Assembly: GCA_905235735.1 (NCBI GenBank)
Contig: CAJOMU010000003.1
Location: 1-64,000, forward strand
From: an uncultured Synergistales bacterium
Lineage (GTDB): Bacteria > Synergistota > Synergistia > Synergistales > Aminobacteriaceae
Direction: 5' to 3'
DNA: 64,000 nt
Part shown: piece by piece, positions 55,380-64,000 of the stretch
Layout: each line of letters starts with the position of its first letter
Numbering within the stretch: position 1 is the first letter of the stretch
Position numbers and translations under genes: made by a program
Notes under the pieces: generated by a model
Seen by the model: the letters and a program-made list of their open reading frames with translations, nothing else
The model's database searches: none
Told to the model about the DNA's origin: nothing

Positions 55380-58300
55380 CTATTTCTTCAAGCCTAAACA
55401 CTCCGTAATCTCAAAACATATCTCTTTAACTGCTTCAATATCTTCACGGCTCAAGTATTCAGGATGCGCATGAAAAACTGAATCTCGAACATGCTGCAAT
55501 TTCGAAAATTTTTCCTTCCAGTATCCTTCGTATGGCTTATCACCGAAGTATTTCCCGAATGAATTCACCCAGTACTGTCCCATCACTGTACCAAGCACAT
55601 TAATCGGAAGAACATCAAGAAGACTTGCGTTAGTATTGTATTTTCGTCTCGTCTTCAGGAGCGAATTGTTATACTCATCTGAATTCAGAATCGGATTCTT
55701 TGTGCGCAGAATTTCATCAAGTTTTTCCTCATGCGTCCCAAATATCACAAGAAGTTCCTTCTTCATCAGTCTCACTATTGCCGCCTGAACATCAAGTATC
55801 TTCAACAAGCCAGGCGAGAATATAACTTCTGGGTCTTGAATCGAAATGTCTTCGCGCTTTTCATACTGGTCTAATTCCTTCTGAAAACATGCCTCAATCT
55901 CATTGTCCGCATTCCCCTTCTGATATATATTCACGTTAAGGCCAAGACGATTCAAGAGTTCACCTGAATATTCGAGGTTATAGAGTAAGCCCTTGAGAAT
56001 CGTATTCAGCAGCTTAGCTCCAGTTACATATGCAAGCGTAAGAAGTCCATCAAAGAATTTGCCGAAATCATTGCACTCAAGAAGACTGCTCCCTGATAGT
56101 GATATGCTCTGCGCTGTCCACTTCCCTGAACGCGAATCATGCCTCAGTCCGTTAATGAAGTATGAGTATACGTATATCCTCAGCCACGCGTTATTCTCGC
56201 CTATATGTCCTGCCTCTTTGATCTCGTCTGCAAGTTTCAGAAGACAGTATCGCCTCGCTGTATCATATCTTGAAGTGTTCTTCTTCGTTCCGTCAAGCTC
56301 AGAGTATAACAGGTATTCCAGTCCCTTATAGGCCATGATCCTAATGTTGTCCTCTTCGGAAAGCGAATATAGCTTCACGTCTTCATCATCGGCAAGCGTG
56401 AAGAAGTTGTAGACGTACCTGGCCATGATGAAACATCTTTCTGCACGTTCGGAATTAGTGAGGCTGAGATTGTCCGTGTTGAATTTGCTGACAAGATAAA
56501 GATAGTTATTCCTGACCTCGATATAATGTCCCTTGCTGTAAAAATTATCCGTCAGAATCTTCGATGTCTCTGAAATCGCCGCTGATGTGTTCAGAATCTT
56601 ATCCTGCAAGAATTTCGGAAGCTCATTGAATGTGTCTACCTTCCTGTCCTCAAGTATTGCCGGTTTTGTCTGTTCGGATTCAGAATCAGAAGTGATAACG
56701 TAAGGCTCAAGAGGAGTGTATGAACGGTTCACTAATTCTTCAAGCTCAGGATTAGAATCAAATTCATTTGTATCTTCTTCAGGGATCAGAATATGATTGA
56801 TTCTCTCTTTTGCTTTCTTGACCAGACCTTCACGCTCCCATGACTGCACTTTTTCTTCAGGAAATGGAATCGATGACACTATATTTTGAATCTGCATATT
56901 CCCGCTCATGTTCCTTCCCCTGATGAATCTTACTGGATGACCTTCAACACTAGGCGAATATTCAAGAAAGACAGCAAGAAGAGGGTCTTTAACGTTATAT
57001 TCATTGAACGTGCATAAAGTTTTGTCCTTAGTGCGTACCTTCCCGAACGGAGGAGTGCTGTGCCTTGCATAAAATTCAATCACGCCTTCTTCAGACAATG
57101 CAGAGAATACATCTGCCTTGAATACCTGTGCTGCTTCCGTTCCTCTGCTCTGAATTGCATACGCTGCTGCTCCTCTTCCGTTATTGCCCACTCTGAACGA
57201 AACTTTGAATTTCGGACGCATCTTCTTGCATGTCAGTAATCTCCTTCGAAGGTCTTTATCCTCAATTTGATTCAAGTGAAAGAATACAGCCTCTTCTGAT
57301 GTTAGCTGAACATCATATTTCTCAAGTGCCGCACACTTTATGAATCCGTAGAGCTTATCCCTGTTAGGATTGAAGTAATCTACCTCTCCTTCAAATTTTC
57401 TAGTGCTTATGTCCGGGAGGTTATTCAGTGATTCATTTTCCGTTACTGAAGGGCTTCCTGCAGTTTTATATGCGTGTTCCATGATCGCATTATCGTGTTT
57501 CTGAGAGTTCAGCCATTCCTTTAATGCACTGACATTTTCAGGTGAACATAATTCGTCCGTGTTAGGCCATGATGAGAAACCCAGAACGTGATTTGCAATT
57601 GCGGCAGTATATGCGAAACACATGTTACGATACTCGGTTGAATTATTATGATTCTCAACTGCATTCACAATTATCCAGAGTAACATGGAGATTAACTGCT
57701 GAGGTTCAGATTTCAGTAATAATGCAAAGTTCTTAGGGTTTAAGGCTTCACTAACTATCAGACAGGCTAAGGCATTCATTCTTGATGCTGATGGTGATGA
57801 GATCATATATGCAGCTCTGAAATCGTGTATCCGCATGAAAATATCAAAACTCTTATTGTTTTCGCCTATGATGTGAAGTATGAATGCGTAAACTTCAGAT
57901 GCAATGACACTGTTCTGATTAGCCCTCCATAACTGACGCGATGAGTTCAATATGTCCGTCATTCTTGCTGAATATGGCTTATTCTCGTTTATCTTCACTG
58001 CATACTGATACTGCGATAATATTTTTTCAGCGGCTGTCTGCTGTTTCTGAATAGTCTTATCTGTTTTTGCTGTCTTGAACTTACGAATATAATCCGCACT
58101 GAGTGATTCTGTTTCACCTGAAGCATATTCCATCTCGTTGATATATTCATCAAGTTCACCCTGAAATTTTATCTCATGCGCTGCTTTTGACTTCTCTGGC
58201 TTTGGTTCAGGTTTAGGAATTTCAACATGCTCTTGTTTAGGAAGTTCAACAGGTTTTTGTTCAGCAACAGGCTCATCATCAAGCGGACGAATTCCCCAAA

Positions 58301-58445
58301 TCATTTGATAGACCCAAAGCTCACGGCCAAGTTCAATATGATCATCTTCGCATTTAAGCAGAACACCTTCAGATTTGTGTCCGTCGGGCATTAATGTAAT
58401 TTCAACTTTCCTGCCTAAATACTTTTCGATAGTCTTTCGTTCCAT
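55380..58445 (-). CDS. Large multidomain protein with Sm-like, cold-shock-like and HEPN-like segments
   Basis: A 1021-residue protein, unrecognised as a whole. Residues 1-58 (GRKVEITLMPDGHKSEGVLL...) resemble an Sm/LSm-like fold. A Pro/Glu/Lys linker covers 59-88 and a helical region 95-325. Residues about 350-432 (FEGEVDYFNPNRDKLYGFIK, AVFFHLNQIED, KVSFRVGNNGRGAAAYAIQ) resemble a cold-shock domain, with a second beta-rich segment at 441-510. A long helical part (605-1021) ends in SKLQHVRDSVFHAHPEYLSREDI. There R987-x4-H992 fits the RxxxxH motif of HEPN ribonucleases. It starts 25 bp after purL on the same strand. An RNA-binding and possibly RNA-cleaving role is inference. Confidence 0.6.
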   Translation of the reverse strand: MERKTIEKYLGRKVEITLMPDGHKSEGVLLKCEDDHIELGRELWVYQMIWGIRPLDDEPVAEQKPVELPKQEHVEIPKPEPKPEKSKAAHEIKFQGELDEYINEMEYASGETESLSADYIRKFKTAKTDKTIQKQQTAAEKILSQYQYAVKINENKPYSARMTDILNSSRQLWRANQNSVIASEVYAFILHIIGENNKSFDIFMRIHDFRAAYMISSPSASRMNALACLIVSEALNPKNFALLLKSEPQQLISMLLWIIVNAVENHNNSTEYRNMCFAYTAAIANHVLGFSSWPNTDELCSPENVSALKEWLNSQKHDNAIMEHAYKTAGSPSVTENESLNNLPDISTRKFEGEVDYFNPNRDKLYGFIKCAALEKYDVQLTSEEAVFFHLNQIEDKDLRRRLLTCKKMRPKFKVSFRVGNNGRGAAAYAIQSRGTEAAQVFKADVFSALSEEGVIEFYARHSTPPFGKVRTKDKTLCTFNEYNVKDPLLAVFLEYSPSVEGHPVRFIRGRNMSGNMQIQNIVSSIPFPEEKVQSWEREGLVKKAKERINHILIPEEDTNEFDSNPELEELVNRSYTPLEPYVITSDSESEQTKPAILEDRKVDTFNELPKFLQDKILNTSAAISETSKILTDNFYSKGHYIEVRNNYLYLVSKFNTDNLSLTNSERAERCFIMARYVYNFFTLADDEDVKLYSLSEEDNIRIMAYKGLEYLLYSELDGTKKNTSRYDTARRYCLLKLADEIKEAGHIGENNAWLRIYVYSYFINGLRHDSRSGKWTAQSISLSGSSLLECNDFGKFFDGLLTLAYVTGAKLLNTILKGLLYNLEYSGELLNRLGLNVNIYQKGNADNEIEACFQKELDQYEKREDISIQDPEVIFSPGLLKILDVQAAIVRLMKKELLVIFGTHEEKLDEILRTKNPILNSDEYNNSLLKTRRKYNTNASLLDVLPINVLGTVMGQYWVNSFGKYFGDKPYEGYWKEKFSKLQHVRDSVFHAHPEYLSREDIEAVKEICFEITECLGLKK

Positions 58446-58470
58446 AAAAGTATATACACCTCCATAAAAA

Positions 58471-63490: not shown

Positions 63491-63769
63491 TTACTTCCTT
63501 TCTGGTCTGTTATCCTCGTAATGTCCTTTACAAGAAGAAATTACGACGATACCATTTTTTTCACGATATATTATTCTGTTTTCTGAATCAATTCGCCTAC
63601 TCCACCAGCCCGAAAGATTTCCGACTAAAGGCTCAGGTTTTCCGATTCCGACACAAAGATTACGCTGAATGTCTTTGAGCAGAGAGTTAATTTTCTTCAA
63701 CGTTTTCTTGTCTTCATTCTGCCATTCAAGATATTGCTCCCAAGCCTTTGCGTCCCATAAGATATCCAT
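63491..63769 (-). CDS. yoeB: YoeB/Txe-family mRNA interferase toxin, second copy
   Basis: A 92-residue RelE-superfamily toxin. The functional residues are conserved at the same positions as in E. coli YoeB: E46 (GKPEPL), R65 (NRIIYR), H83 and Y84 (KGHYED). By hand alignment about 51 of 86 positions match the YoeB at 13890-14159. It follows its RelB partner by 6 bp and precedes purD by 6 bp, so read-through of toxin transcription into purine genes is likely unless a promoter intervenes. Confidence 0.9.
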   Translation of the reverse strand: MDILWDAKAWEQYLEWQNEDKKTLKKINSLLKDIQRNLCVGIGKPEPLVGNLSGWWSRRIDSENRIIYREKNGIVVISSCKGHYEDNRPERK

Positions 63770-63775
63770 GAATTT

Positions 63776-64000
63776 TTAGACTTCTATGAGTTCATGCTTT
63801 TCGAGTTTTGCTTTTCCGCTGTCGATCTCCGAAGTAATTTCTTTGAGATATTCGAGGTTATTTTTGGAGTAGAATGGATCATTTGCGAAATTTTTTGCCA
63901 ACTGATTAAACGCCTCTGCAACGCTAATCCCCAAAGTTCTGCATATGTCTTCAATTTTTCGTTTGATGCTTGATTCAATTTCAAATGTTACGACTTCTGT
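63776..64000 (-). CDS. relB: RelB/DinJ-family antitoxin, 5' end beyond window
   Basis: The visible C-terminal 74 codons read TEVVTFEIESSIKRKIEDIC, then RTLGISVAEAFNQLAKNFA, then a helical tail ending HELIEV. The ribbon-helix-helix start (TFEIESSIKRKIEDI) and the following helix match RelB/DinJ antitoxins. A different overlapping frame on this strand is longer from an ATG but has no family match. The start codon lies to the right of the window. It is the antitoxin for the YoeB at 63491-63769. Confidence 0.8.
   Translation of the reverse strand, partial: TEVVTFEIESSIKRKIEDICRTLGISVAEAFNQLAKNFANDPFYSKNNLEYLKEITSEIDSGKAKLEKHELIEV

Follow-up and report, generated by a model that had tools for sequence, protein, structure and literature searches.

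A purL-linked gene of ruminant-gut Synergistales encoding a predicted Swt1-like HEPN endoribonuclease with SH3-type and cold-shock modules

The gene that lies directly behind purL in the 64,000-nucleotide stretch of Synergistales DNA analysed here (the window) encodes a 1021-residue protein whose domains run in the order SH3, helical repeats, cold-shock domain (CSD), CSD, helical domain and HEPN. The explanation that we consider best, with slightly better than even confidence, is that the protein is a chromosomal, vertically inherited, conditionally active Swt1-like HEPN endoribonuclease with built-in RNA-recognition modules. Computation established the order of the domains, that R987 and H992 are invariant and occupy the site canonical for HEPN, that the locus is fixed and that the gene is under purifying selection. 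Judged from its sequence and predicted structure, the protein is a new arrangement of known parts in which three predicted RNA-binding barrels are joined to a predicted RNA-cutting end.

The gene, its locus and its domains

The open reading frame runs from 58445 to 55380 on the minus strand and has 1021 codons with an ATG start (Table 1); the plus-strand reading of the same interval contains 52 stops and was ruled out. Thus, the 1021-residue protein proposed by a sequence-only reading of this DNA holds once the strand is corrected to minus. More than 20 full-length homologues, 49-82% identical to the window gene, have open frames, and the pN/pS of the window gene against its two closest relatives is 0.19-0.25, compared to 0.14-0.16 for purL, and from the open homologues and this ratio we conclude that the frame is a real gene. 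The stop codon of purL is 25 nt upstream of its start and both genes are transcribed in the same direction, which agrees with the position right after purL given earlier, and the two are probably co-transcribed. Upstream of purL is purD, and on the downstream side there are a convergent ArsP-type permease gene and a DUF362 gene; the genes flanking the HEPN gene in the window are purL, purD, the permease, DUF362 and metabolic genes. The genome that contains the window is 2.1 Mb. Just upstream of purD there is a YoeB-like toxin gene (63491-63769, minus strand, Pfam E=1.8e-30), and a 74-aa ORF at 63776 that adjoins it may be its antitoxin; no test gave any tie between the YoeB-like gene and the HEPN gene.

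Table 1. Positions in the window of the HEPN gene, its encoded domains and adjoining features
Feature	Position	Strand	Basis
Whole gene, 1021 aa	55380..58445	-	ORF; homologues sharing the full architecture; purifying selection
SH3/Sm-type beta barrel, residues 1-56	58278..58445	-	AF2 and DUF150_C; nearest family RimP C-terminal SH3
Helical-repeat region, residues 95-330, TPR-like at low confidence	57456..58163	-	AF2; TPR matches in L122
Cold-shock domain 1, residues 351-433	57147..57395	-	Pfam CSD, Foldseek, AF2, invariant residues
Second, diverged cold-shock/OB barrel, residues 452-524	56874..57092	-	AF2 five strands; tandem-CSD Foldseek match
Helical domain of no known family, residues 641-880	55806..56525	-	AF2 helices; absent in some homologues
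Swt1-like HEPN domain, residues 881-1018	55392..55805	-	HEPN_Swt1 profile, hhalign, AF2
RDSVFH, HEPN Rx4-6H motif, residues 987-992	55470..55487	-	Invariant R and H; end of helix 3
Ribosome-binding-like GGAGG	58459..58463	-	Sequence; 13 nt before ATG, in the 25-nt gap behind purL
purL, 1221 aa	58471..62136	-	Pfam; directly upstream of the HEPN gene, same strand; adjacency conserved

The AF2 model of the full protein was built on 33 relatives and has a mean pLDDT of 74 and a pTM of 0.35, and with this pTM single domains can be trusted but not their mutual arrangement. At the N-terminus it has a five-stranded barrel (strands within 13-54, pLDDT about 84). The RimP C-terminal SH3 family (DUF150_C) is matched in 12 of 23 family members, with no better than E=0.037 in the window copy and E=3.9e-7, over the curated cut-off, in the homologue L123, whereas LSM family models match only 2 of the 23, weakly, the best at E=0.0047. 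By these profile matches the RimP-type SH3 fits the barrel better than LSM does, and the earlier designation 'Sm-like' is correct as to the fold class, the nearest family being RimP C-terminal SH3. This is followed by helices at residues 95-329, with pLDDT of 80-94 across most of them, and the TPR matches in the truncated homologue L122 are at E of about 1e-3. The helices at residues 641-880 were predicted with pLDDT of about 47-84, and this domain has the lowest pN/pS among the larger domains (0.088 and 0.123), that of the HEPN domain being low as well.

Between these helical regions lie the two cold-shock barrels. The first has an RNP1-like YGFIK and an RNP2-like VFFH motif, five AF2 strands, and G367, F368, I369, F388 and H390 invariant in 33 sequences; Pfam CSD matches residues 353-432 at E=6.6e-4, which is below the curated cut-off. 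When Foldseek was run against the PDB, the best matches were the tandem CSDs of Drosophila Unr (E=1.2e-4 and 2.9e-4, probability 1.00), and single domains of the CspA type came shortly after them (TM of CspA 0.73 by target length). In the second barrel E452, G454, G468 and F480 are invariant in the 33 sequences and the RNP motif has diverged. A cold-shock domain is defined by an OB barrel of five strands and by the motifs RNP1 and RNP2; the first domain has all of these and the second has the barrel with a diverged motif. These results confirm the cold-shock-like segment that had been placed at about 350-432 and identify the 'second beta-rich segment' behind it as a second five-stranded cold-shock barrel in tandem.

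The C-terminal helical part with RDSVFH at 987-992 is exactly as the sequence-only reading described it. HEPN_Swt1 (PF18731) is the family that most members match (17 of 25, best E=9.9e-5, under the curated cut-off). When compared by hhalign with genuine HEPN_Swt1 domains, which came from other Synergistota, the domain gave P=8.8e-5 and the R/H motifs were aligned in register, while seven further helical segments of this protein, serving as controls, gave P of 0.16-0.88; with the narrower and less diverse alignment A3 the P was 0.0046. The earlier case hinged on the conservation of R987 and H992, and both are invariant in every HEPN-bearing homologue aligned, in the pattern R-[DN]-x3-H, as well as in 11 diverse HEPN copies of which some are only 28-44% identical. 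The conservation thus holds over identities from 82% to 28%, and the residue that follows R, which in the HEPN motif is polar (N, D or H), is always D or N. Swt1-like HEPN domains also have a conserved acidic residue in helix 2 near the active site; in the window protein D944 is invariant. The AF2 model of this domain (pLDDT 89.6) is a C-terminal helical bundle in which R987 is near the end of helix 972-991, H992 opens the loop and the next helix is 1000-1016, with extra short helices before helix 972-991. This topology agrees with the published one, in which the motif lies where helix 3 ends or the loop to helix 4 starts and an insert separates helices 2 and 3 (PMC3710099). When the HEPN model was run in Foldseek against the PDB there was no significant match, the C-terminal domain of yeast Swt1 (4pqz) being at rank 18 (E=4.1, TM 0.33/0.36), and a profile search of PDB sequences with alignment A2 gave no match; the HEPN call is therefore rested on sequence and topology and not on a solved structure. 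Hence, the Sm/SH3-type, cold-shock and HEPN topologies that had been anticipated are all seen in the predictions, but for HEPN no solved structure matched significantly. HEPN membership is well supported by the profiles, the conservation of the motif and the predicted topology.

Related systems and variation among relatives

The nearest described proteins are those in which a Swt1-like HEPN is fused to a STAND-ATPase, TPR and S1 (Npun_F6454, MED222_16016, Desac_1927; PMC3710099, Table 1). In the Npun_F6454 type, as in the window protein, one chain carries a Swt1-like HEPN together with helical repeats and RNA-binding modules of the OB fold; going by the description in PMC3710099, the window protein differs in that it has no NTPase, has tandem CSDs instead of S1 and has an extra N-terminal RimP-type SH3, and the AAA/STAND-type domains are shared only by its relative in G022. 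Pfam gave no AAA/STAND match on the window protein, and NCBIfam gave nothing useful. HEPN-STAND proteins with C-terminal cold-shock-like OB folds have also been reported (B. cereus gi 229028907; PMC3710099), and these too have HEPN and a cold-shock-like OB fold on one polypeptide, but in the reported order HEPN is first whereas in the window protein it is last and there is no STAND. The DUF499 ATPase/HEPN_Swt1 proteins of other Synergistota (Ava_2192 type) share the HEPN subfamily and the phylum with the window protein; in them, however, HEPN precedes the DUF499 ATPase, the Pfam match is strong and no CSD was found. HEPN_Swt1 with a DUF499 ATPase was seen in other Synergistota among L155, L157, L163 and L164, along with one HEPN_Swt1 with an HD domain. 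In CoCoNuT type IV restriction systems, CSDs and HEPN RNases serve predicted RNA targeting (PMC11090510), but there they are in separate proteins around McrB/McrC whereas the window gene encodes one chain, and there is no McrB/McrC among the immediate neighbours of the HEPN gene. Unr/CSDE1, the nearest solved structure to residues 351-524, differs in being a eukaryotic multi-CSD RNA-binding protein with no nuclease.

In the literature searched, no description was found of the SH3-CSD-CSD-helical-HEPN order or of the purL linkage, and nothing relevant was found on HEPN with RimP or Synergistetes. The earlier claim that no system with this order of parts had been described thus holds for the exact order, but not for its ingredients, since cold-shock-like OB folds were already known from HEPN-STAND proteins, and Swt1-like HEPN from chains that also have STAND-ATPase, TPR and S1. 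In the same way, the idea of one polypeptide that joins RNA recognition with an RNA-cleaving end is borne out by computation as far as the Sm/SH3-type, cold-shock and HEPN parts with the conserved Rx4H are concerned, but full novelty and a role in conflict or as a toxin are not.

Relatives of the window protein differ in architecture. The homologue L078 is 731 aa long and is without residues 597-880, the forms in G018 are 722 aa and 447 aa, and that in G034 (215 aa) has retained nothing beyond the SH3 barrel and the first part of the helical repeats. An NTPase has apparently been added to the same core in G022 and placed beside it in G018. In G022 (L121 914-7449), behind purL, a 1683-aa ORF overlaps a 523-aa ORF, with AAA_16/nSTAND-type domains and a C-terminal HEPN, and this may be a frameshifted single gene or two coupled genes. 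In G018 (L124 2-2515, on G018:C397) the AAA+ ATPase gene (PADLOC IetA-like, E=2.2e-28) is upstream of the HEPN gene, as is a gene for a 476-aa protein that has a glycine-rich C-terminus and, by its sequence, a possible PD-(D/E)xK-like, nuclease-like stretch; the end of the same gene is on a second G018 contig (L123 7657-8061), and G030 carries a 68%-identical copy of the protein. The frame of L069 2255-5283 (G094) is broken inside HEPN, leaving 936 aa and a separate ORF of 71-80 aa, which may be a sequencing error or a real inactivation. About a dozen genomes also have, at other sites and with housekeeping genes around them, short paralogues with SH3 and two CSDs but without HEPN; those at L080-L088 are 310-496 aa long and several are near a candidate AlbA/Schlafen-like gene, as read from its sequence.

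Distribution, inheritance and possible roles

In a profile search, 31 of the 43 genomes of the window's genus (ruminant-gut Synergistales) had the family and the 140 other genomes of the order gave no match, and matches to the HEPN profile in 188 Synergistota genomes were confined to the window's genus. In a scan of the genomes of 84,980 species with three peptide patterns, which was the sole reach into other phyla and could miss distant relatives that do not fit the patterns, matches were only in Synergistales. Related contigs in public data belong to MAGs that bear the label Synergistaceae/Synergistales or Fretibacterium, and many of them come from the guts of goat, sheep, deer and reindeer. 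Each of the 26 copies for which the DNA upstream is present (24 fetched loci, the window and G022) directly follows purL on the same strand, and the gaps are mostly 11-92 nt, the exceptions being L062, with a gap of 445 nt and a shortened purL frame, and L079, in which the start that was chosen gives an overlap. The contigs that carry the G018 copies have no purL, and these copies cannot be placed. Protein distances correlate with purL distances (r=0.69, 0 of 2000 permutations), and pN/pS across comparisons is 0.06-0.25, about that of purL. Inheritance is thus mostly vertical. Between L064 and L071 the dN of the HEPN gene (0.013) is lower than that of purL (0.039), which suggests recent gene exchange or stronger constraint.

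The fixed site behind purL, the distances that track those of purL and the purL-like purifying selection are what favours the main rival explanation, a housekeeping enzyme of the genus for RNA processing or mRNA decay that has a low constant activity, whose CSD and SH3 modules pick transcripts or (pre-)rRNA, by a logic like that of Las1-type HEPN processing enzymes; RimP-type SH3 and CSD modules likewise belong to RNA and ribosome biology. However, 12 of the 43 genus genomes have no profile match and these are scattered on the purL tree, which shows that the gene is dispensable, and the architecture differs between relatives. We therefore regard a housekeeping role as a serious contender but clearly less probable than a conditionally active nuclease.

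The purL tree requires several gains or losses of the gene. In genomes without it the interval between purL and the permease is empty (G024, G089) or is a variable cargo slot whose genes, glycosyltransferase-like, LicD-like or others, lie on the opposite strand (L109, L111, L112, L114). Such an interval speaks for a toxin or an anti-phage (abortive) module that occupies a variable site, with purL on one side and the permease/DUF362 pair on the other, and so do the AAA/STAND NTPases and the nuclease-like gene carried by or next to the G022 and G018 homologues, and the common use of HEPN domains as defence effectors (PMC3710099). Nevertheless, the window protein has no PADLOC match, no defence gene was found among the immediate neighbours of the HEPN gene, and the adjacent antitoxin that marks a type II toxin-antitoxin pair is missing, there being purL 25 nt upstream, the convergent permease downstream and no adjacent gene of antitoxin size. 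No copy was found in phages and plasmids, or in viral contigs with either the whole profile or the HEPN profile; in PHROGs the sole match was a weak one of the N-terminus to a 75-aa family that has no name, and when the full model was compared with viral structures in Foldseek, the matches were only OB-like and partial, none at E<=0.001. With the mostly vertical inheritance and the conserved HEPN and 641-880 regions added to this, we rank a defence module after the housekeeping enzyme and consider it unlikely, and the conflict or toxin role hinted at in the sequence-only reading is not supported. The gene is a resident one that has been lost or replaced in some lineages and not a travelling module.

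Proposed mechanism and significance

If the protein is the conditionally active nuclease that we favour, its HEPN end would dimerise and cut RNA without metal through R987 and H992, as characterised HEPN RNases do. The SH3 barrel and the tandem cold-shock domains may bind RNA, or its ribosome- or mRNA-bound form, and would either bring RNA to the nuclease or sense RNA for it. The helical regions would keep the nuclease inactive until a signal of stress or infection, upon which the released nuclease would degrade cellular RNA. A switchable effector of this kind fits the AAA/STAND-type domains in G022 and the separate AAA+ gene in G018. Uncontrolled HEPN RNases harm the cell, as is known from HEPN toxins; this favours conditional activity, and so do the lack of an antitoxin gene to go with the HEPN gene and the NTPases found in, or next to, the homologues of two relatives. 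A different form of control, to which we give a little less credence than to the defence module, is that of an RNA-sensing shut-off enzyme in which binding of RNA by the cold-shock and SH3 modules directly switches on HEPN, with no guide, NTPase, second messenger or antitoxin, and the site in the purine operon would tie its level to nucleotide demand. That the protein is a non-catalytic regulator whose HEPN end binds RNA without cutting it is very improbable, since R and H are both invariant and one or the other should have decayed if catalysis had been lost, even though for some HEPN families RNA binding is probably the whole function (PMC3710099) and the short paralogues without HEPN presumably only bind.

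If the activity of the favoured enzyme is confirmed, it would add to the HEPN RNases one with RNA-recognition modules on the same chain, and one that has been kept for long at one chromosomal position and not on mobile DNA. It would then also be a compact and testable model for the targeting and restraint of a HEPN RNase in which no antitoxin, guide RNA or NTPase takes part, and its relatives provide a natural series of the same core with and without added domains.
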